Below are positions 9,520-19,698 of a stretch of DNA of 64,000 nucleotides, piece after piece; positions within the stretch are counted from its first letter, which is position 1; every line of letters starts with the position of its first letter. The notes beneath the pieces were generated by a model. That model made no database searches. It had not been told where the DNA came from and saw nothing but the letters and a program-made list of their open reading frames with translations. Made by a program: the position numbers and the translations under genes. Origin of the DNA: Phyllobacterium sophorae (GTDB lineage Bacteria > Pseudomonadota > Alphaproteobacteria > Rhizobiales > Rhizobiaceae); NCBI RefSeq assembly GCF_003010965.1, contig NZ_PGGM01000009.1, forward strand, positions 1-64,000. Direction: 5' to 3'.

Positions 9520-10308
9520 TCACCGCTCCACTCTTCTTGCTTCATCGGCCGTAAGCGCGCTCTCTCGCGTGCCGGAAACGATAATCTCCAAGACCTCATG
9601 TTCGTCGGTATTCTTGATGTAGCGGTCGCCGACGTACTCGCCTCGCTTAAGCACCATGACGCGATCGCCCACGGCGAAAATGTCGACGAGGCGGTGTGAG
9701 ATGATAATCTGGGCGACACCCTGCTTCTTTAGCTCAAGCATGGTTTCGAGGAGGCGCTCGGTCGCCATCACCGAAAGGTTGGCGGTGGGCTCGTCGAGGA
9801 TCACGACGCGCGGCTCGAACGAGATGGCGCGGGCGATGGCCACAGATTGCTGGCGGCCGCCCGACAGGCTTTCGACCTTCTGATACACGGAGTTCACATC
9901 GACTTTGAGCCGTTTGAGCACACGGTCAGCTTCCGCATACATCTTCCGCCGATTGACGAATGGCCCCTTGAGCGGCCAGCGGCCAAGAAAGATATTCTGG
10001 CCGACGTCCATGTTCCCGCACAGCGCAAAATCCTGGTAGATCATCTCGATACCGGCGTCTCGGCTCTCGTGCGGACTCTTGAAGTGGACCGGCTGCCCGG
10101 CCACGAAGATCTCGCCGCCGTCGCGTTGATAGGCGCCGGTCAGTATCTTCATCAGAGTCGACTTGCCGGCGGAGTTGTCGCCGACCAGGCCAAGAATCTC
10201 ACCAGGATAAAGCATGAGGTCGACCTTGCGGAGCGCTTGCACGGCCCCGAAAGCTTTTTCGATGTTCCGCATCTCGACGATGGGCTCGGGTGGTGTCGCA
10301 TCAGCCAT
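9520..10308 (-). CDS. Sugar ABC importer, ATP-binding protein (CUT2/FrcA type)
   Basis: A 262-residue single-domain ATPase energising a ribose/fructose-class importer. Walker A is GDNSAGKST (residues 43-51), the signature is LSGGRQQ (148-154) and Walker B is VVILDEPTAN (168-177). The GDN(S/G)AGKST form and the single ATPase domain resemble FrcA of the Sinorhizobium fructose importer rather than the duplicated RbsA type. Its start overlaps the end of the fused permease gene by 8 bp, so translation is coupled. The sugar cannot be told from sequence. Confidence 0.9.
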   Translation of the reverse strand: MADATPPEPIVEMRNIEKAFGAVQALRKVDLMLYPGEILGLVGDNSAGKSTLMKILTGAYQRDGGEIFVAGQPVHFKSPHESRDAGIEMIYQDFALCGNMDVGQNIFLGRWPLKGPFVNRRKMYAEADRVLKRLKVDVNSVYQKVESLSGGRQQSVAIARAISFEPRVVILDEPTANLSVMATERLLETMLELKKQGVAQIIISHRLVDIFAVGDRVMVLKRGEYVGDRYIKNTDEHEVLEIIVSGTRESALTADEARRVER

Positions 10309-12556
10309 GAACGGTTTCCGAGGTTCGTGCGCCTCTTGTGAGGCGGGTTCTCAGGCGTCCGAGAATGTTAGCCTGGCGCACCCAGATATCGACGAGCACC
10401 GCCACGATAAGGATGACGCCGATGAAAACATTGATCCAGTGCTGCGGCATGCTGAACCCTTGGACATTGAGCTGCAAGAGTGCCCGGACGAGCGTGATCA
10501 CGGCAGCGCCGGCAAGCGCGCCAATCACCGTGCCGTAACCACCAAAGATCGAGCCTCCGCCGATAATCACGGAGGCGATGGCGTCAAGCTCGCGGAACTG
10601 GCCGGCGACAGGGTTGAAGCTGCGAAAGTAAGCGACATTGATGATCCCTGCCATGGACGCGCAGAGGGCCGCCAACAACAGCGCGACGAACCGCATGCGA
10701 TTGGTGTTGATGCCGGCATAGGCTGCGGCTCGGACGTTGCCGCCGGTGGCGTAGACCTTCTGCCCGAACGGCGTGTAGGCAAGTACCACGCCAGCAATCA
10801 GCGCGACGATGAGCATCCAGACCGTCTGCACGCTCACCACCTGAGCAACTGAGCGGAGGACACCATCGGCCAGTGATATGCCGAAATGCAGGAGGATGTC
10901 GTTCACCTTGCGACCGAGCAGGTTGTAGCCTTCGGGCCAGCCAGTCAGTTGCTGACCAGCCACGAACCAGGCGGCGAGGCCTCGGGCGATATAGAACATG
11001 CCGAGCGTCGCGATGAAGGCCGGCAGCTTGAAGCCGACAGTGACGATAGCGTTGACGAGGCCAGCGGTCATCCCTGCGAGCAAGCCCATTGCCACGGCGG
11101 TGAAAGGGTCGGCGCCCAGCACCTTGAGGAAATAGGCGGCGGCGCTTCCGGCGAGAGCGAGGACCGCCCCGACTGAAAGATCGATGTCGCCGGCCGCAAT
11201 CACATAGGTGAGCCCGACCGCAATCAACGCCAGTTCCGTGTAGTTGAGCAGGATCGCGAAGGTATTGGACAGGTTCCACCAATAGTCGGGCCGCAGAATG
11301 AGGCCCGTCAACCACAGCAGCGCGGTCAAGAGGATGGCCAGTGCGTCGCGCCGGGCGAGGAACTTGCCGAGCCCCGTGGACGACAACGCCGTATCCGTTA
11401 TCATCGCCCCCTTGGTCTGGACACCCTCGACCGCGATACCGCCGATCTCGTAGGCGGGGGGCGGCGGCCGGCCGCGAAGCCATGCCCAGAGCCGCGCCGC
11501 GACCTGGCGACGAATGAGATAAGGCTCGATGAGCACGGCGAAGACTAGGAGGAGGCCAAGAAATACCAGCACTGCGCCGGCCGGTAGGGTGTACTTGGCG
11601 TTGACCGGGATGTTCTGACCGTCGATGACGATGATGCGGGTAATGGGCCAGCCTTCGCGCAATACCTTGTCGATCAGAACGACGAGTGCGGCGCCAAGAC
11701 ACGAACCCACGACACGGCCGCGGCCGCCAAGAATCGAGGCACCGCCGATGATGACGGATGCGATGACGGTGAGTTCCCAGTTCACGCCATATAGCGGGGT
11801 CACCCCCTTGTCTTGGGCGGCCGACAAAAGGGCTGCCAGGGTCGCGCAAAGCGAAGAGATCAGATATGCGCGAATGCGCACCCAGTTCGTCGCAATGCCC
11901 GCATAGATCGCTGCCTGTTCGTTACCGCCGGTAGCAAATGTCTCGTATCCCCAACGCGTCTTGGCGAGGACGTAAGCGCCGATCGCCATCACCACAATCG
12001 CGATCGGAATCTGATTGTTGAAGCCGAAAATGTTGGTTTCGCCGAGATGGAAGAAGAGCGGATGCGCCGCCGCTTTTTCGGAATAATAAATTGCCTGGCC
12101 ATGCGTAAGTGCGAGGACGAAGCCGCGGCCGATCAAGAGCGTCGTCAAGGTCGCGATGAACGCTGGTACCCTCAGGATGGTAATCAGCACCCCATTTGCC
12201 AATCCGATCCCGGCGCCTAGGAGGATGCACAGAACAACTGAAGTCGTGATGCCGAGATCAAGGAAGTTCGGGGCGAACAACCGGGCGAAAACGACGGCGA
12301 TCAAGCCGTAGATTGAGCCCACCGAAAGATCGAGATCCCTGTTGACGATGACGAAAGTCATTCCAACCGCAATAATCCCAACCCGGGATGTGTCGCGCAG
12401 AAGTGCATGAAGCGCCTCCGTTGAACCGAAGAAAGCCGGATTGACGAGCACCCCGCCGAGGTAGAGGAGGGCAAGGAATATGAGGAGTCCGATCTCCCAG
12501 CCGCCGGCGAGCTGGGGCGGCGCACGGCCGAGCGATGTGGTCGTGGTGATCGTCAT
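10301..12556 (-). CDS. Fused double permease of a CUT2 sugar ABC importer
   Basis: A 751-residue inner-membrane protein consisting of two complete RbsC/FrcB-like permeases in tandem. Each half carries the family signature: VNRDLDLSVGSIYG in the first half and AAGDIDLSVGAVLA in the second, each followed later by R-V-P-A-F-I-A-T-L or K-L-P-A-F-I-A-T-L and by A-S-V-I-I-G-G-A/G-S-I. A hydrophilic linker of about 60 residues joins them, near residues 345-400. CUT2 importers normally use two copies of one permease, so this is a covalent heterodimer. It lies 78 bp after the binding-protein gene and overlaps the ATPase gene. Confidence 0.93.
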   Translation of the reverse strand: MTITTTTSLGRAPPQLAGGWEIGLLIFLALLYLGGVLVNPAFFGSTEALHALLRDTSRVGIIAVGMTFVIVNRDLDLSVGSIYGLIAVVFARLFAPNFLDLGITTSVVLCILLGAGIGLANGVLITILRVPAFIATLTTLLIGRGFVLALTHGQAIYYSEKAAAHPLFFHLGETNIFGFNNQIPIAIVVMAIGAYVLAKTRWGYETFATGGNEQAAIYAGIATNWVRIRAYLISSLCATLAALLSAAQDKGVTPLYGVNWELTVIASVIIGGASILGGRGRVVGSCLGAALVVLIDKVLREGWPITRIIVIDGQNIPVNAKYTLPAGAVLVFLGLLLVFAVLIEPYLIRRQVAARLWAWLRGRPPPPAYEIGGIAVEGVQTKGAMITDTALSSTGLGKFLARRDALAILLTALLWLTGLILRPDYWWNLSNTFAILLNYTELALIAVGLTYVIAAGDIDLSVGAVLALAGSAAAYFLKVLGADPFTAVAMGLLAGMTAGLVNAIVTVGFKLPAFIATLGMFYIARGLAAWFVAGQQLTGWPEGYNLLGRKVNDILLHFGISLADGVLRSVAQVVSVQTVWMLIVALIAGVVLAYTPFGQKVYATGGNVRAAAYAGINTNRMRFVALLLAALCASMAGIINVAYFRSFNPVAGQFRELDAIASVIIGGGSIFGGYGTVIGALAGAAVITLVRALLQLNVQGFSMPQHWINVFIGVILIVAVLVDIWVRQANILGRLRTRLTRGARTSETVHG

Positions 12557-12634: not shown

Positions 12635-13717
12635 TCAATTCTCGAAGCGCTTGCCGACATTCGCAACCGTTTCCTTCGTCACGAGTTGGGCGCGCGTATC
12701 AAGATTGGCGGCCGCAATGCCGCGGTCGATCTGCAGATAGAGCTGCATGACCGGCCAGAACCCCTGCAGGAATGGCTGCTGTCCCAGCGAACCGGTCAGG
12801 TTCCCCGCAGCGATACCTTCTTGCTGTGCTGGTCCGAGGTCAAAACCATAGGCGCAGAGCTTGCCGGTTTTCTTCATCTGTTCGACCGCTTTGACGAGCG
12901 GCGGCGTGAAGACGTTGTTGGCGGTGAAAGCACCGACCACATCACCACGCGACTCGAAGAGCGTAACAAGCGCGTTGACGGGGTCATTTGGGTTCGTGTC
13001 GATGCCCACGTTCTCCGGACCGGCGTCGACCTTGAATGCCTCGAGCTTGCCGGCGTCCTTCAACGTCTTGACAATTGCGTTGAAGGCGGCGGTCACACGA
13101 TTGTTCACCTCAATATTGCCCATTGCGGTAGAGGACGGCAGCACGATCGAGCCGCTGGTCGCGCCACTCGCGAGGACGCAATTGGCGAGCGCCTCACCTC
13201 CGATTGCCGCAGCCGACGCGTCCTGGCCGGTGTGGCTGATGGCGCTCCGGTGCAAGATGTTTGCGTCGAACGAATTAGTGGTGGCGACCGGGATACCATT
13301 TGCTTCGGCGGTTTTGACAATGTCGTTATAGGCGCCGACCTGTGGTGTGGTCATGATTATCCCGTCGATAGTCGGATCCTGCACGATCTGGTTCAGGATT
13401 TCGATTTCGCGTGCAGGATCATCTACTGGCGATTCCGAGCCAAGCAGCAGGATCTTGGCGCCGATCATGTTGCCGGCGACAGTTGCGCCAACATAGACGG
13501 GGTCAAAGAAGCCATTGCCGGCGGTGTGCGTTACAATCGCAAAGGTCAAATGACCGTCGGCCGAATGGAAATCCTTGGTACCGGGTGCCTCCTTTGCGGC
13601 TTCATTAAAATTATAGCCGCCAACTGCTTTCTCGACACTCCCGGATTGTGCGAAGGCGTGCGTGACGCCGAGCGATAACGCCGCGGCGCAAGCCGCGAGC
13701 AAGAAATTACGCCCCAT
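12635..13717 (-). CDS. Sugar ABC importer, periplasmic binding protein
   Basis: A 360-residue periplasmic binding protein of the ribose/galactose (type I, Peripla_BP_4) class. The signal peptide is clear: MGRNFLLAACAAALSL then a cut after AFA. The mature part shows the expected D-G-I-I-M-T-T-P-Q segment and the G-x-x-T-A-N-N segment facing the ligand cleft. The frame is open 51 codons further upstream, but the ATG at 13717 is preceded by a GGGAGGATC site and gives a proper signal peptide. It is first in the binding protein-permease-ATPase operon. The ligand is unknown. Confidence 0.88.
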   Translation of the reverse strand: MGRNFLLAACAAALSLGVTHAFAQSGSVEKAVGGYNFNEAAKEAPGTKDFHSADGHLTFAIVTHTAGNGFFDPVYVGATVAGNMIGAKILLLGSESPVDDPAREIEILNQIVQDPTIDGIIMTTPQVGAYNDIVKTAEANGIPVATTNSFDANILHRSAISHTGQDASAAAIGGEALANCVLASGATSGSIVLPSSTAMGNIEVNNRVTAAFNAIVKTLKDAGKLEAFKVDAGPENVGIDTNPNDPVNALVTLFESRGDVVGAFTANNVFTPPLVKAVEQMKKTGKLCAYGFDLGPAQQEGIAAGNLTGSLGQQPFLQGFWPVMQLYLQIDRGIAAANLDTRAQLVTKETVANVGKRFEN

Positions 13718-14043
13718 GACTGATCCTCCCTTTTCAACCAAGGGCGAAAGCCGTTCGGGCGCACTTATCGAGAGGGGTCCGAATGCTTCCTCCCACTTTG
13801 TTATATTCTGCGCAAATGCGGTCCAAGTAAATGGTGTACTTACTGTACCCGCGCATTTGTTCAACTGCACCTGCTATACGCTTGCTTTCCGGTAGAAAGT
13901 GCAATTCGACATTGGCGTCGTCTCAACCAAAGAACTATTTCATACTGTACTTAAACCAGGCGTGTTTTCGCTATTTCCAGCGCACGGCACGTGACGTTCA
14001 TGAGCTGACGAATGCCAGCGCCGAAACGACGCCTCTTCATGGT
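13718..14043. other. Promoter region of the CUT2 importer operon
   Basis: A 326-bp stretch without a gene. On the minus strand a TTGGAC (13826-13821) and a TATAAC (13805-13800), 15 bp apart, could form a promoter for the binding-protein gene, though the spacer is short. The downstream end of the adenylation-acyltransferase gene borders the region at 14044. No confident operator was recognised. Confidence 0.35.
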
Positions 14044-16626
14044 TTATCTGGGGCTGGTTGGATTCAACCACTGGCTCGCCCACGGCAGGCGGAACGGCTT
14101 GATCATCCACGCCCAACGCAACAGGTTCTTCAGAAATTCATTAGCCAACAAACCTGCGGCAACGCCGCCGAAGATCGATGCTGCAGTGAAAATCGACCAG
14201 GGCAGCATGCCTTCAAGTGGCGTTAGTATCAACTCAGGTACGAACCTATGGAAAAGATAGATATGGTAGCTTGCGGCGGAGATCGGAAGCACGAGATGGA
14301 CGATACGCCGCGGCAACGATACACGGGGAGCGGATAGCAGGGCAGCGAGAAGCGCGAACTGGAGCATATATTTGACCCAGGAGCCGATCCAGTTGCCACC
14401 GGAATAGGCAACCAGCGGAAAAATGGCTGCAGCAGCTGCCAGCACCAATAGCTTTCTGAAGAAATTGTCGGCAAAATATGCCAACCAACCAAAGGCTGCG
14501 AGATAAAGCACCCATGGCACCGTAAAAATTTGTCGGTCCCCGATCGGCCAGGCCAATGGCCCCATAAACCGAATTGCCAGCGCCGCTGCAAGAAATGACA
14601 TCCCAAAGGAATACGGACTTCTCGCGGCGGTATTCCGGATGGTTGGAATGGCGAATAGTCCAATCCAGATCAGCATCATCTGGACATAGGCTTCAACGAA
14701 CCAATACAGCAAGGGAACCATCGTTCCGTTGGCCGGATCGGCGAAACCGAAGTTGCCGACAAGGAGCACTGACGTCCACGGCACCTTGCCCCACGCAAGG
14801 CCGTAAACGGCAACAATCAGATAATAGGGCGCAAGGACAGTTATGATGGGCCGTGCAAAAGCAGTGAGATTACCGGAAAACAAATTGCCGCTCTGGAAGC
14901 GGGCGAGACCGTAGCCGATCAACATGACCATGGCGGCAGCACCGCCTGGAATTGGCCAAAGGGTTGCGTGTTGGACGACGACGCAAAGGATAGCCAACGT
15001 GCGGATCAGCAGATCCGTTCCTACGGTCTGCATCCCGGTCTTGGCCTGTCCCATGGTGGAGAGCTCAGCGATTGATCTGTTCTCCCAGTTCTCGGGCAGC
15101 TGGTGCAGGACTCGCTCGAGTTCCAAGGACAAGCGGACGTAGCGTAACGAGTCACCGCCCAGCGATACGAAGGTGTCATTGTCGGCGACGGTCAGCGGTA
15201 AGAACGCTTCCCTGAACGCTGTTCTCACGCTCAGCGTTTTGCGGGTCTGCTTCTGGCCAAAACGCATTCTCAACTGTTGATAGTCAACCTTGCCCGATGG
15301 AAGGCGAGGCAGTATTCCCTGCCGGCTGGCTTCGACGTGGAGGGCGGTCAGCCCGCTCGCCTGGACCAGCGCGTTGCGTACAGTATCTTCTGAATGCGAT
15401 GACGTATAAAAGGCAATGATTGATTGATCATCGCCCAAAACGGCTGCTTGGATCCCCTGCAGTGACAGTGCTTGTTCCAGCAAGTCGTGACCGATGCGCA
15501 ATCCTGCGATCTTCGATATACGACTGCGGCGACCGACAATGCGGTAAAATCCACGCTTGTCCCGTATCGCCAGATCTCCTGTTTTCAGTTCCGTCAGTTC
15601 CGCGCCGCGGCTCAAGTCGCTCCGGCTCGATGCGTAGCCCATCATGATATTGGGCCCGCTATAGATCAATTCACCGGGGGTTTCGGCTCCATGGATCACC
15701 ATCCCATATTCATCCGCCAGGCCCAGTTCCCCTCCCGGGATTGCAATCCCGATGCCGTGCGGGTTTTCCACCACCAGGTGAGGCGGAACATAAGCCATTC
15801 TCGCCGTGGCCTCGGTCTGCCCATACATGACAAAGAGTTCCTTGCCCTGCCGTGATAGGTGGCTGCCATAAAGACGCACCAGATCGGCGGGCAATCGTCC
15901 GCCGGCCACGGTCAACATCCTCAGGTTCGGCAGGTTTTCCTGGCGAAAACCGATCTGCTCGAATAGTTCGAAAGAATACGGAACTCCGGAAATGTTTGTA
16001 CAACGGCTCTCTCGCAGGTCCTCGACGAAACCGGTGTCGAGGATTGATTTGCGCGGAACAAAGACGCTGGCGTGCGCGGCCAGGTGGGAATTCAGAACCG
16101 AAAGGCCGTAAGAATAGTGAAGTGGCAGTATTAACGCGCTGCGGTCGTTGTATGTGAGATGGAGGAAATGAACAATAGAATCCGCATTGGCTTCTACGTT
16201 CCTTCCCGAAAGCCGCACGAACTTGCCCTGACCGGTGCTGCCGGATGTCGAGAGCAGCAAGGTGAGATCAGGATGCAGGGTTTCACACGATGGGTGAGCT
16301 GTGTGGTCGGTGAGCCAGCGGTCTCCAATTTTGCGAAAGCAGATATCAGGTCCGTATAATTTCTGAAAACTGGCAGCCGCACGCGTGTCGCCCGGCGGCA
16401 GCAGCGCGACGGCATGCCCGCCGGCAAGCGCCGCGAGATAGGCGATGATCGCGTGTTCGGAAAGACTGGCTTCTATGGCAATCAACCGCTTTTCGCCGCC
16501 AAACGACGTCGCCAAAGTCGCGACCCGCTGCGCAAGTTGATCATAGGTTATGACAGCCCGGCCGGGGAATATCAGGGCGGGCGATTGGCCGCCGTCGGAC
16601 AGGTGGCCGACAAAATTTGGAACCAT
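14044..16626 (-). CDS. Adenylation-carrier-membrane acyltransferase fusion enzyme
   Basis: An approximately 860-residue three-part enzyme; residue numbers here count from a TTG at 16656, ten codons before the ATG at 16626. The N-terminal part is an AMP-forming adenylation domain: STSGSTGQGK (136-145), YGQTE (278-282), TGDL (359-362) and catalytic Lys456 in PSGK. A carrier domain follows, with the phosphopantetheine serine at 503 (GGDSL). The C-terminal 320 residues are about ten membrane helices beginning with R-x10-H (Arg552, His563), the acyltransferase-3 signature. It should activate an acid, load it on its own carrier and hand it across or onto a membrane acceptor. Acid and acceptor are unknown. 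Both start codons lack a good ribosome-binding site. Confidence 0.85.
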   Translation of the reverse strand: MVPNFVGHLSDGGQSPALIFPGRAVITYDQLAQRVATLATSFGGEKRLIAIEASLSEHAIIAYLAALAGGHAVALLPPGDTRAAASFQKLYGPDICFRKIGDRWLTDHTAHPSCETLHPDLTLLLSTSGSTGQGKFVRLSGRNVEANADSIVHFLHLTYNDRSALILPLHYSYGLSVLNSHLAAHASVFVPRKSILDTGFVEDLRESRCTNISGVPYSFELFEQIGFRQENLPNLRMLTVAGGRLPADLVRLYGSHLSRQGKELFVMYGQTEATARMAYVPPHLVVENPHGIGIAIPGGELGLADEYGMVIHGAETPGELIYSGPNIMMGYASSRSDLSRGAELTELKTGDLAIRDKRGFYRIVGRRSRISKIAGLRIGHDLLEQALSLQGIQAAVLGDDQSIIAFYTSSHSEDTVRNALVQASGLTALHVEASRQGILPRLPSGKVDYQQLRMRFGQKQTRKTLSVRTAFREAFLPLTVADNDTFVSLGGDSLRYVRLSLELERVLHQLPENWENRSIAELSTMGQAKTGMQTVGTDLLIRTLAILCVVVQHATLWPIPGGAAAMVMLIGYGLARFQSGNLFSGNLTAFARPIITVLAPYYLIVAVYGLAWGKVPWTSVLLVGNFGFADPANGTMVPLLYWFVEAYVQMMLIWIGLFAIPTIRNTAARSPYSFGMSFLAAALAIRFMGPLAWPIGDRQIFTVPWVLYLAAFGWLAYFADNFFRKLLVLAAAAAIFPLVAYSGGNWIGSWVKYMLQFALLAALLSAPRVSLPRRIVHLVLPISAASYHIYLFHRFVPELILTPLEGMLPWSIFTAASIFGGVAAGLLANEFLKNLLRWAWMIKPFRLPWASQWLNPTSPR

Positions 16627-16656: not shown

Positions 16657-17264
16657 TACTGACGATATGAATGGATGGGCTGATACGTTTCTGGAGTGTA
16701 ATAGTCAATTTATGTTGCAGGTCACACACGCATTTGCTGCTTCGCTGTTGTCCTGCACCGGCAGCCTCGTCCTTATGCAAGCAAAATTCTGAAAGTGGTA
16801 CTAAGCACTTCTCCAGTTCTCCTGCGAATGAGCTAGTACTTTTTAACTACACAAGACTGATGGACAAAAAAGAAATTTGCAATGTCCGTGTAATGTTTAA
16901 AATAACGCTAATTCTTTATTTGACAATTAGTTCTCGAAATGACCTACTATCCTGTCAAATGAAACCTAGTCCTGCGTGGGGGAATATGCGCATCAATGGT
17001 AGGTTTGCCTCAAAATGGTTGCTTGGGACACTAAGCAGCGACGCGATCCCCGGATTTGATTTTCTTCACGCCGGCACTGGCAAAGGTGCGCTGAACTATG
17101 TCGTGGCCTACGCCGGTAACAATAATGATGTCATTTAGGCGCCCATCAGAGGTAAATGTAACTCTTGAAGACGTTCCGGGTCATCGGCGTTACTGCGGTC
17201 GACGCGGCGGAGTAGTGGCACTTTATTCTGATCGGTTCGTCGATACCGCGTTGAAAGTAAGCAG
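16657..17264. other. Long A+T-rich intergenic region between divergent genes
   Basis: About 600 bp, visibly richer in A+T than its surroundings, separate the adenylation-acyltransferase gene from speD. A plus-strand promoter candidate is TTGACA at 16920-16925 and TACTAT at 16945-16950 with a 19-bp spacer. A 155-codon plus-strand frame (16671-17138) is rejected as a gene because its sequence is of random character. The length allows for upstream regulation or a leader RNA, but no riboswitch class was recognised. Confidence 0.4.
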
Positions 17265-17771
17265 ATGAACTCGATGTCCAGGTTATATTCGGGACCATTC
17301 CCGTCGACTGCCGCTGATTTCTCCGCGCATAATGCTGTTGCTGGTATTTTTATCCCTCCGCTACCTGTGGCCAATCGGAAATTGAGTGAACACGTTGTCG
17401 CCGGCGGATTGCCGGGCCGCCACCTGATTGCAGACTTCTATGATGCGTCGGCTCTCGAGGACATAGCGCGAATCGAGTGTGGATTTCGGGACGCCATCAG
17501 CCAGTCGGGAGCGACGCTGCTCCATTTGCACTTCCATAGATTTGGCGGAGGAGGGGTTACCGGGGCTGCAATCCTTGCTGAGAGCCACATGACGGTTCAT
17601 ACATGGCCAGAGAAGAGCTTTTGCGCGATCGACATCTTCATGTGCGGCGCTTGCGATCCCCGAAGTTGCTTGCCCGCCATGGTCGGAGTGTTCAGCCCGC
17701 GCCGTATCGGCATAGTTCAGATGACGCGGGGCCTCTGCGTATGTGACGCCGGCGCAGGGTGTTCATCGTGA
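17265..17771 (+). CDS. speD: S-adenosylmethionine decarboxylase proenzyme
   Basis: A 168-residue pyruvoyl enzyme (prokaryotic class 1B, SpeH type) making decarboxylated AdoMet, the aminopropyl donor for polyamine synthesis. The self-cleavage site is Glu106-Ser107; His112 and Cys127 lie 5 and 20 residues later, exactly the spacing of Ser63/His68/Cys83 in the Thermotoga enzyme. The core begins at G-R-H-L-I-A-D-F-Y near residue 51, so there is an unusual 45-residue N-terminal extension; translation could begin later, but no better start with a ribosome-binding site was seen. Its stop overlaps the speE GTG start (GTGA). Confidence 0.93.
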   Translation: MNSMSRLYSGPFPSTAADFSAHNAVAGIFIPPLPVANRKLSEHVVAGGLPGRHLIADFYDASALEDIARIECGFRDAISQSGATLLHLHFHRFGGGGVTGAAILAESHMTVHTWPEKSFCAIDIFMCGACDPRSCLPAMVGVFSPRRIGIVQMTRGLCVCDAGAGCSS

Positions 17772-18868
17772 CTTGTTCGCCGCATGAGGCTACTCCATCG
17801 TCACCGGAGGACGGTGAGCGATCTTATTCTCTTCCGCCCCTGCCACCAGGTTATTTCTACGCCGATGCCGCTGCCTACCAATTGCCGCTCCGCGAAGGCA
17901 TGTATGTTGTCGAAATGGCTGATCCTGTTGATCGATATCACTATAGGGTCAAGTCGATTCTCTGCTCGCAAAAAACGGCTTTCCAGAGCGTCGTTATAGC
18001 AGACACGTACAACCACGGCGTTGCATTGTATCTGGATGGCGTGATTCAGAGTGCGGCTCACGATGAGGACCTCTACCACGAAATGCTCGTCCAGCCGGCG
18101 ATGCTGCTACACGAAAAGCCGGCGGACGTCTTAATCATTGGCGGCGGGGAAGGAGCTACTTTGCGCGAAGTCCTTGCGCATCGCACGGTTCGAAAGGCGG
18201 TTATGGTCGATATCGACCAAGAAGCTGTAGAACTCTGCCGACTGCACCTGACTGAATGGCATTGTGGCGCGTTCGAGGACCCGCGCGCGGAAATCCACTT
18301 TCGGGATGGACGTGAATTTATTGAGAACGATGATCGGCAATATGATGTCGTGATCGTGGATGTAGTCGATATGCTGGACAACGGCCCTGCCCAGCGACTC
18401 TACACACGGCAGTTTTATGAACTAATCAAAAAGCGGCTTCGCCCCGGCGGAATTTTGGCTATCCAAGGGCTTGAGTTCTCAATCAATCATTGGAAGGACC
18501 ACACCGCGTTGAGGCGCACTCTGCAGACAGTTTTTGCGAACGTCGGTAGCTATCATCTGAATATCCCGTCATTCCTCTGCTCGTGGGGCTTTCTGATGGC
18601 GTCGGATCGGATCGATGCCCTTGACCTTGTCTCTCCGTTGGACATCGAGGGTCGGATTTCTGCCAAGCTCGATCCTGATTGGCTGGATCATTTGACCGGA
18701 GAGCTTTTGCACGCAAGCTTCTGCAATTGTCGAGAATTGAAGCTTTATCTCTCGCTCCCTGGCCCGATTGTGGACGATGATGATCGATATGTGAGACTTC
18801 CGGACATACAGGAGGTTGATCCCACATGGGAGAGACTTCGATTGGTACGAGACGATTGGTGGCCGTAG
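17768..18868 (+). CDS. speE: Aminopropyltransferase, thermospermine-synthase-like
   Basis: A 366-residue polyamine synthase that transfers an aminopropyl group from decarboxylated AdoMet to a polyamine. The AdoMet site is IIGGGEGATLREV (about 123-135), VDID (147-150) and D-G-R-E-F-I (from 180). At the usual spermidine-synthase D-(S/T)-T-D position it has DVVD (198-201). The C-terminal half, with N-G-P-x-x-x-L-Y-T-x-x-F-Y, then IPSFLCSWGFLMASD and L-T-G-E-L, reads like plant ACL5-type thermospermine synthases and their bacterial relatives. GTG 17768 has an AGGG site and overlaps the speD stop; a GTG at 17759 is an alternative start. Confidence 0.85.
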   Translation: MTCSPHEATPSSPEDGERSYSLPPLPPGYFYADAAAYQLPLREGMYVVEMADPVDRYHYRVKSILCSQKTAFQSVVIADTYNHGVALYLDGVIQSAAHDEDLYHEMLVQPAMLLHEKPADVLIIGGGEGATLREVLAHRTVRKAVMVDIDQEAVELCRLHLTEWHCGAFEDPRAEIHFRDGREFIENDDRQYDVVIVDVVDMLDNGPAQRLYTRQFYELIKKRLRPGGILAIQGLEFSINHWKDHTALRRTLQTVFANVGSYHLNIPSFLCSWGFLMASDRIDALDLVSPLDIEGRISAKLDPDWLDHLTGELLHASFCNCRELKLYLSLPGPIVDDDDRYVRLPDIQEVDPTWERLRLVRDDWWP

Positions 18869-19698
18869 CTTCGCTCAAACCACGTGCGTGGCTGCTGACC
18901 TTTCGTTCCGGGTCATCGAAGAACGAGGGCGAAGAGATCAGGCTGGATCTGCCGGAGCCTGTCCTGGCCTTATTTGAAGAACTCCCGAATCCCGATTGCT
19001 TGCTTGACGGCGGGACGCTTCCATCGGTCACTACGCCGCCCTCGCACGATTGCGAGATTATCTTCCTGCCTGCAGGTTCCGCGACGCCGTTCCCACTGCA
19101 GAAGGCCGCTGAGGGTTGGATAGCTGAAGACCCATCCGGCACCGGCGCTCGGCAATCAGTAATTGAGATCTCATTTCAAGGAGCCCGCGTTTTACGCGCA
19201 GTAGGCAAGATCGTCATCGTTGGGGATCAGGATTGGCCGGTCAGGAAGGGAATCGCCCAATTTGAATGGATATGCAAACAACTATGTCGTCTGGAGGAGT
19301 GCATAGTAAACCAATGGGAAACTTCGGGCGAAGATGCAACCTTCTTCTACTTGAGCCGCGCTGGACGTTCTTTCCAGCAACGAGCAGGTGTTACCGCCGC
19401 CCAAACCAGTGCGGCAAAGTATTGGCTAATCCGCGCGGAGACGTTGCTCGATCGCTCTGATCTGATCGCGCCGCCAATTGCTCGACGCGTATTTCTTGAG
19501 CTGTGCTTGAGGACCGAGATTGCCGCGCGTATGAAGGCGGCAGAAAGAGCGGTCGACGCAATTCACTTGCTTTACGAACAAGCTTTTATGCGGCTAAGTG
19601 AAAAGCGGGAGGCTGGAAGAAGTCTCTTGATCGAAATCTTCATCCTGCTCGCAATCCTGGCCGAGGTCGCATTGTATGTCTGGGAGCTCTGGTTTTAA
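18826..19698 (+). CDS. Unknown protein with C-terminal membrane anchor, in speDE operon
   Basis: I do not recognise this 290-residue protein. It begins inside the 3' end of speE (43-bp overlap) behind a strong AGGAGGT site, so co-expression with speD-speE is clear. The first 220 residues are soluble, mixed alpha/beta then helical. Residues from about 225 are strongly helical, and the protein ends in one hydrophobic segment (about 266-285) with a short tail. That layout recalls the RMD1/DUF155 family, but this is not proven. By position it resembles the uncharacterised third gene after speD2-speE2 in Pseudomonas aeruginosa (PA4773-PA4775). Confidence 0.8.
   Translation: MGETSIGTRRLVAVASLKPRAWLLTFRSGSSKNEGEEIRLDLPEPVLALFEELPNPDCLLDGGTLPSVTTPPSHDCEIIFLPAGSATPFPLQKAAEGWIAEDPSGTGARQSVIEISFQGARVLRAVGKIVIVGDQDWPVRKGIAQFEWICKQLCRLEECIVNQWETSGEDATFFYLSRAGRSFQQRAGVTAAQTSAAKYWLIRAETLLDRSDLIAPPIARRVFLELCLRTEIAARMKAAERAVDAIHLLYEQAFMRLSEKREAGRSLLIEIFILLAILAEVALYVWELWF

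Follow-up and report, generated by a model that had tools for sequence, protein, structure and literature searches.

The gene at 14044..16626 (minus strand) of the window, by which the whole analysed stretch of 64,000 nucleotides of Phyllobacterium sophorae is meant (RefSeq assembly GCF_003010965.1, contig NZ_PGGM01000009.1, positions 1 to 64,000), encodes an adenylation domain, a carrier domain and an acyltransferase-3 (AT3)-like membrane domain in one chain. The fusion is rather likely to be an iron-starvation enzyme, which charges its built-in carrier with a non-amino carboxylic acid, passes this acid via the AT3 pore to an acceptor outside the cytoplasm and thereby produces or alters an iron ligand that would serve an FbpABC-type transporter. 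It probably belongs to an uncharacterised iron acquisition route rather than to cell-surface decoration. This reading is built on the residues kept and lost in the family, on iron-box-like sites upstream of the gene in two phyla and on a recurring ferric transporter beside it.

Domain architecture and active-site residues

The open reading frame (ORF) starts with ATG at 16626, ends with its stop codon at 14044 (stop included in the coordinates) and encodes 860 amino acids. In a Pfam scan the window protein matched AMP-binding (PF00501) at 1.2e-34, PP-binding (PF00550) with 20.5 bits, slightly short of the 20.8 cut-off, and Acyl_transf_3 (PF01757) with 11.5 bits (E 0.15), below the 31-bit cut-off. 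Alignment A2, comprising 36 full-length sequences with the window protein among them, gave matches to the three models at E ≤ 0.01 in 36/36, 32/36 and 31/36 sequences, respectively; the window protein is outside the 31 Acyl_transf_3 matches, the best of which reached 8.3e-14. Since its relatives match the same models, the weak scores of the window protein look like divergence and not like absence of domains. The ORF is real and conserved, and has three modules, all on the minus strand: the adenylation domain (residues ~13–460; 15247..16590), the carrier domain (residues ~472–528; 15043..15213) with Ser493 in the motif LGGDSL (codon 15148–15150), and the AT3-like membrane domain (residues ~537–840; 14107..15018). 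Across A2, Lys446, Ser493 and R542-x10-H553 showed no variation, and G571, G713 and Y790 were likewise kept in 36/36; in one fusion outside this alignment (locus L027) Lys replaces the Arg of Rx10H.

AlphaFold2 modelling of the whole protein gave a mean predicted local distance difference test score (pLDDT) of 86.8 and a predicted template modelling score (pTM) of 0.53, with confident modules and uncertain relative placement, and modelling of the membrane part alone gave pLDDT 90.6 and pTM 0.88. By Foldseek, the soluble part has the ANL adenylating enzyme fold. The membrane part had no match at E ≤ 0.001 among PDB structures, and among BFVD viral models one unnamed 637-residue model was found (TMq 0.61, E 2.1e-3); an NCBIfam scan of the membrane part of six family members gave nothing above chance. 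As the fold searches of this part returned no PDB match, its assignment to AT3 was based on sequence motifs and Pfam.

For the adenylation domain, 59 fusion rows (58 distinct loci, the window being counted twice) were aligned. T349-G350-D351 and K446 are present in 59/59 rows, position 172 is Ser in 36 and Cys in 23, where the aligned PDB chain 3wvn has Asp, and the A4 Asp of non-ribosomal peptide synthetase (NRPS) adenylation domains, which binds the amino group of the amino acid, is absent in all 59. Among the best PDB sequence matches were 3wvn (1.1e-24) and 5ie0 (7.6e-19); 3wvn and 3wv4 are presumably VinN. Arg276 does not vary in the 59 rows or in 34 adenylation-only rows (the latter include L081 and L085, both probably cut fusions); we take it to align with the pocket position PheA 331, where it could bind a further acidic or polar group of the acid. 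Naming the acid from the pocket was attempted and gave no assignment.

A preliminary description of this DNA, made from the letters alone, had proposed a single chain with adenylation, carrier and AT3-like membrane parts and an R-x10-H acyltransferase-3 mark, and the ORF, the Pfam matches across A2 and the invariant R542-x10-H553 bear this out. Its catalytic residues, given as Lys456 and Ser503, are the right ones with numbers 10 too high, counted from an upstream TTG. It had further held that the pocket is not of the standard NRPS kind and that the acid is not readable from it, with which the missing A4 aspartate, the Ser/Cys at position 172 and the outcome of the naming attempt agree.

In the membrane domain, Tyr790 of SxxxY was found in 36/36 and Ser786 in 26/36 sequences of A2. 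The Asp of DxxR occurs in 0/36, compared with 18/31 ordinary AT3 controls, the Phe of FxxxxG at the aligned position 566 in 0/36, a loose [FY]xxxxG anywhere in 18/36 vs 23/31, and RxxR in 7/36 vs 27/31, control rates that are rough, as at least 5 of these 31 ORFs seem to be misread, four of them having been counted as carrying RxxR. The DxxR Asp, FxxxxG and RxxR have been assigned to the acyl-CoA site, and the Asp is dispensable in the AT3 protein OacB (PMC12423673, excerpt). Because residues of the acyl-CoA site are lost while Rx10H and the Tyr are kept, the acyl donor may sit on the built-in carrier instead of on CoA.

Distribution of the fusion

The carrier-membrane query matched in 5/59 near genomes and in 9/398 genomes of the phylum, one of the latter (G295) weakly and with an internal stop; a profile search at E ≤ 1e-100 matched in 14/397 genomes of the order, one (G669) with the adenylation part only. 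The own genome is included in all three counts. A plasmid collection yielded 85 records at E ≤ 1e-60 (rhizobial, roseobacterial and actinobacterial), many near-identical and some chromosome-sized, of which 80 cover at least 80% of the query. From a scan of 84,980 species the best 80 of 518 related stretches, i.e. the best-scoring end, were taken. The 105 loci examined comprise the window and L018–L121, L024 and L042 being the same record. Using family-built profiles, adenylation and carrier parts were found in one ORF at 67/105 loci and all three parts at 64/105, mainly in Alphaproteobacteria and Actinobacteria; at 75% identity, 59 fusions form 45 groups. The closest relative found (L018) is 95.7% identical and lies on a plasmid of Phyllobacterium sp. 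A18/5-2. Two adenylation-carrier proteins have a C-terminal part missed by the family AT3 profile: that of L076 (9935–12748) matches PF01757 at 7.5e-22, and that of L080 (9953–12589) stayed unmatched by the family profile. At L098 the adenylation domain is partial. The record of L019 (CP090106.1), labelled pSymB, holds 3.7 Mb with lpt, ndk, uvrC and other chromosome-like genes and is probably mislabelled.

In the tree of adenylation domains the deepest fork is weak; 54/59 fusion rows and the two cut ones are found on one of its sides, and L052, L065, L071, L076 and L080 on the other, with the 32 stand-alone rows, so that the tree does not demonstrate one single fusion origin. The stand-alone adenylation relatives (L040 and L084–L121 except L085, L096 and L098) keep Arg276 in their aligned rows. 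When one example per family was scanned, a LuxE/LuxC-like ORF was found near 27/34 adenylation-only loci (the probably cut L081 and L085 being among the 34), and SDR, DegT-type aminotransferase or NeuB at others, which suggests that these relatives are an acid-activating family in surface-glycan synthesis; reading the substrate from this context was rejected, as it fixes no acid.

Iron-box-like sites upstream of the gene

With agreement at 14 or more of 19 consensus positions as the criterion, 28/31 actinobacterial loci have an IdeR/DtxR-type box no more than ~200 bp upstream of either the fusion or the leading gene of the transporter, and 33 such sites were counted in 600,721 bases vs 0 and 1 in two Markov simulations. 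Seven of eight actinobacterial adenylation-only loci are without such a site. In the eighth (L085) it stands directly before a gene that runs off the stretch and groups with actinobacterial fusions, for which reasons this locus is probably a cut fusion.

Among 35 other upstream regions, 14 carry the RirA-type pattern TGA-N9-TCA within the last 150 bases (L019, L020, L021, L022, L028, L029, L030, L035 and L043–L048), where 0.89 were expected by shuffling, and 13 of the 14 read TTGAC-N8-TCA. The published RirA box of fhuA, TGACTAAAATAATCAT, fits the same pattern (PMC10510648, excerpt). In the window, a RirA-like box one base off (TGA-N9-TCC; 16693..16707, minus strand) overlaps a TTGAC element upstream of the gene, and TGA-N9-TCC was also seen by eye in L023–L025. 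IdeR is not RirA-like, the two belonging to different regulator families; candidate sites for two such unlike regulators, upstream of one gene family in two phyla, are the strongest single argument for a role in iron starvation.

Expression data for a probable ortholog point indirectly in the same direction. In Sinorhizobium meliloti Ak57, ndk is the third gene after the fusion and is itself followed, seven genes on, by uvrC; in strain 1021, ndk is SMc00595 (PMC2912261, excerpt) and uvrC is SMc00602 (PMC12542648, excerpt). As the gene order of Ak57 matches these locus numbers, SMc00592 was taken, by order alone, as the fusion ortholog. According to PMC2848241 (excerpt), SMc00592 ('hypothetical, transmembrane protein') is among 36 swarming-specific genes, up to 17 of which the authors counted as iron-related, and responds together with haem and siderophore genes, its values in Table 2 (1.47 and 1.30) resembling those of hmuT (1.49 and 1.39).

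A ferric transporter beside the fusion

Transporter profiles were built from the annotated sets of L020, L036, L037 and L039. A complete set of binding protein, permease and ATPase (FbpABC-type) adjoins 19/67 fusion loci, 15 of them independent of the profile sources; a partial transporter was found at L041 and L082, and a transporter is also present at L081, where the fusion is cut by the contig end. By phylum, 19/31 actinobacterial loci (a figure that includes L081 and the partial L082) and 3/37 non-actinobacterial loci (L020, L030 and, in part, L041) have it. Beside adenylation-only relatives it was found at 0/37 loci, 11 of which are shorter than 18 kb, as are 13/66 fetched fusion loci. 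At six loci (L055, L057, L063, L067, L069 and L070) the fusion has 4 bases in common with the ATPase gene.

The binding protein of L036 matched three ferric-binding-type PDB chains at 2.2e-136 to 7.7e-135 (including sfuA at 2.2e-135 and YfuA at 7.7e-135) and the FbpA PDB chain at 3.5e-56. A Tyr-Tyr pair, which we take to be the ferric ligands of FbpA, is common to 21 aligned binding proteins. In NCBIfam, six transporter proteins gave below-cut-off matches only (phosphonate, polyamine, thiamine and others, and a ferric ATPase), and the ferric assignment was for this reason based on the Tyr-Tyr pair, the PDB matches and the record annotations. The own genome encodes a ferric transporter on contig 22 (gene order ATPase-binding protein-permease), with TTGACAAATCTTATCA (TGA-N9-TCA) ~160 bases upstream. 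Its binding protein shares 85% identity with the one beside the Pararhizobium fusion. Three PF01648 phosphopantetheinyl-transferase matches were also found in this genome.

When the ORFs lying up to 8 kb from the fusions were clustered, seven families proved common to at least 4 of the 45 groups: ABC ATPase (PF00005) in 16, ferric binding protein in 7, ferric permease in 6, ABC-F-like (annotation name) in 6, two GGDEF-type signalling families in 5 and 4, and SDR in 4, the last being common in background loci too. Except for the transporter parts none of the seven looks specific, so that no further conserved partner was retained. A survey of genomes for the same fusion and its neighbours had been proposed in the preliminary description, with absence of conserved neighbours named beforehand as refuting; all three parts recur in one ORF at 64 of the 105 loci, and the ferric-iron ABC transporter recurs beside them, with iron-box-like sites upstream. 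The role suggested there, in which a surface glycan, lipid or polyamine would receive the acid, gains no support from this partner, and among the 105 loci polyamine genes adjoin the fusion at two only, the window and L018; a surface glycan or lipid may still be the acceptor.

Proposed mechanism and alternative explanations

At low iron, RirA in rhizobia or an IdeR/DtxR-type repressor in actinobacteria would release its upstream site and the gene would be expressed. The cytoplasmic adenylation domain would then activate a small carboxylic acid, not an ordinary amino acid and perhaps bearing an additional acidic or polar group that Arg276 grips, and the activated acid would be loaded onto Ser493 of the built-in carrier, which a short linker would hold at the cytosolic mouth of the AT3 pore. 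The acyl-phosphopantetheine arm is proposed to enter the pore at the place that acyl-CoA takes in other AT3 enzymes, where Arg542, His553 and Tyr790 would assist acyl transfer outwards, to an acceptor at the outer face. The product would be an extracytoplasmic ferric-iron ligand or part of one, its iron being imported by the FbpABC-type transporter. To judge from the genomic context, the product may be of the siderophore type, a secreted Fe(III)-binding molecule. More tentatively, the family may represent a further siderophore route beside the multi-enzyme NRPS and NRPS-independent pathways, in which one membrane protein with an AT3 pore refitted for a carrier-bound donor releases or displays a simple ferric ligand for FbpABC.

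Several observations weigh against an iron-starvation enzyme of this kind. The window has no ferric transporter adjacent to the fusion, which is likewise without one in 34/37 non-actinobacterial loci (window included) and in 12/31 actinobacterial loci, and there is no outer-membrane receptor among the recurring neighbours of the 8-kb clustering. The IdeR-type box is missing at L037, L054 and L083, and one IdeR-like site was found in 29 non-actinobacterial fusion loci (L019). TGA-N9-TCA is absent near the start in 21 of the 35 regions; in a harsher control it also precedes 24/152 other ORFs in 15 of these loci, and the 13-kb stretch of contig 22 holds five copies. As the pattern is this frequent before other ORFs and on contig 22, single boxes prove little. 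The window's own RirA-like box deviates by one base, and in L018 (strain A18/5-2), upstream of 10001, the stretch with this box seems by eye to be lacking. The response of SMc00592 comes from swarming conditions and not from defined iron starvation (PMC2848241, excerpt). Acetyl-CoA is given as the donor for CmmA, TmaT and OatA, with an acyl carrier protein argued against (PMC9558356, excerpt), and the adenylation-only relatives stand in surface-glycan clusters, fitting a glycan acceptor.

The last point leads to the main rival explanation, which we consider unlikely though deserving of serious attention: an iron-regulated envelope modification, in which the acyl group is placed on a surface glycan, peptidoglycan or a lipid head group and changes the charge or concentrates Fe(III) near FbpA, with no diffusible ligand. 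AT3 enzymes usually acylate extracytoplasmic sugars (PMC9558356, excerpt), and a glycan context of the adenylation-only relatives would suit it as well; the recurring neighbour of the fusions is a ferric ABC transporter, however, and no glycan enzyme is among the families found in at least 4 groups within 8 kb. Acylation of a siderophore made by unlinked genes, comparable to the acyl tails of amphiphilic siderophores, would be in line with the iron-box-like sites and with four rhizobial records that have no common operon partner. We judge such tailoring improbable, given that no siderophore synthesis gene is among the neighbour families in at least 4 groups and that the binding protein encoded beside the fusion belongs to the ferric FbpA/SfuA type.

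Two explanations of a different nature have very little probability. The divergent neighbours at 17265–18868, coding for an AdoMet decarboxylase and a spermidine-synthase-like protein, raise the idea that the acid is attached to their polyamine product; this link was rejected, because the neighbourhood is confined to the window and L018 and is not conserved across the 105 loci, being absent even from L023–L025 of the same genus. The faintest chance of all is given to an iron-sparing or stress enzyme that lowers the iron need indirectly. Such a role has been proposed for AimS, an AT3 protein of Acinetobacter that metal limitation induces and whose action does not depend on how much metal the cell contains (PMC13345540, preprint, excerpt). 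AimS, however, is a stand-alone AT3 protein, and the pairing with a ferric importer seen here points to uptake. An enzyme that supplies an iron ligand to FbpABC-type import remains the preferred explanation.

Other genes of the window

The S-adenosylmethionine decarboxylase gene (17265–17771, plus strand) and the spermidine-synthase-like gene (17759–18868, plus strand), both divergent from the fusion, are probably outside the system; the latter product is under the cut-offs of speE-type NCBIfam models. It is followed, in the stretch 17759–19698 (plus strand), by a gene for a 290-residue protein with no Pfam or NCBIfam match; as a neighbour of the fusion this gene is confined to the window and L018. 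An ABC permease of 751 residues, with two BPD_transp_2 stretches in one chain (10301–12556, minus strand), is flanked by a periplasmic binding protein (12635–13870) and, by eye, an ABC-ATPase-like ORF (9520–10308).

Comparison with known systems

With the AT3/TmAT superfamily (OafB, OatA, HGSNAT) the fusion shares Rx10H in helix 1, Gly in helices 2 and 6 and the Tyr of SxxxY in helix 9 (motifs after PMC12423673, excerpt). It differs in lacking the DxxR Asp, the aligned FxxxxG Phe and a conserved RxxR, and in carrying its own adenylation and carrier domains upstream in the chain. Bacterial AT3 fusions named in the excerpts of PMC9558356 and PMC9833829 are those with SGNH and alanine racemase domains, and none with adenylation and carrier domains. 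Among the titles and abstract beginnings listed in searches of open-licence literature, none names the adenylation-carrier-AT3 architecture, a scope that does not establish its absence in print.

The Dlt system consists of separate DltA, DltC and the MBOAT protein DltB, and its substrate is D-Ala. Adenylation, a phosphopantetheine carrier and subsequent membrane acyl transfer are common to both, and DltA (3e7w) is a Foldseek match; the fusion, in contrast, is one chain, of AT3 and not MBOAT type, with a pocket devoid of the amino-acid Asp and with iron-box-like sites. It may thus be said to work like a one-chain Dlt with another membrane enzyme, yet it is not a Dlt system.

EntE and EntB are NRPS-type siderophore enzymes, and epsilon-poly-lysine synthetase is a membrane-bound single chain. 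With the former the fusion has in common adenylation and carrier domains and, to judge from its candidate boxes, probable iron regulation, the EntE-EntB fusion 3rg2 being among the Foldseek matches; with the latter it shares the one-chain adenylation-carrier-membrane layout. It may be said to work in part as an NRPS-type siderophore enzyme does, but no condensation domain was found in it, its last step is assigned to the AT3 pore, and the A4 Asp is lacking. Kinship in sequence exists to 3wvn/3wv4 and to oxalyl/malonyl-type adenylating enzymes; as the Asp of 3wvn is Ser/Cys in the fusion, the substrate is not readable from them.

The binding protein of L036 belongs with FbpABC, SfuABC and YfuA, systems in which, to our knowledge, no adenylation-carrier-acyltransferase enzyme takes part. 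In the usual picture, FbpABC-type importers take up iron with no dedicated siderophore of their own; if the proposal is true, a widespread enzyme under iron control and linked to these importers would supply them with a ligand, and would contribute a one-protein chemistry by which soil, symbiotic and actinobacterial species acquire iron. It would then also be, as far as we know, the first AT3 enzyme to receive its acyl group from a carrier in the same chain, and would offer the AT3 field an example of a covalent link between donor and transferase.

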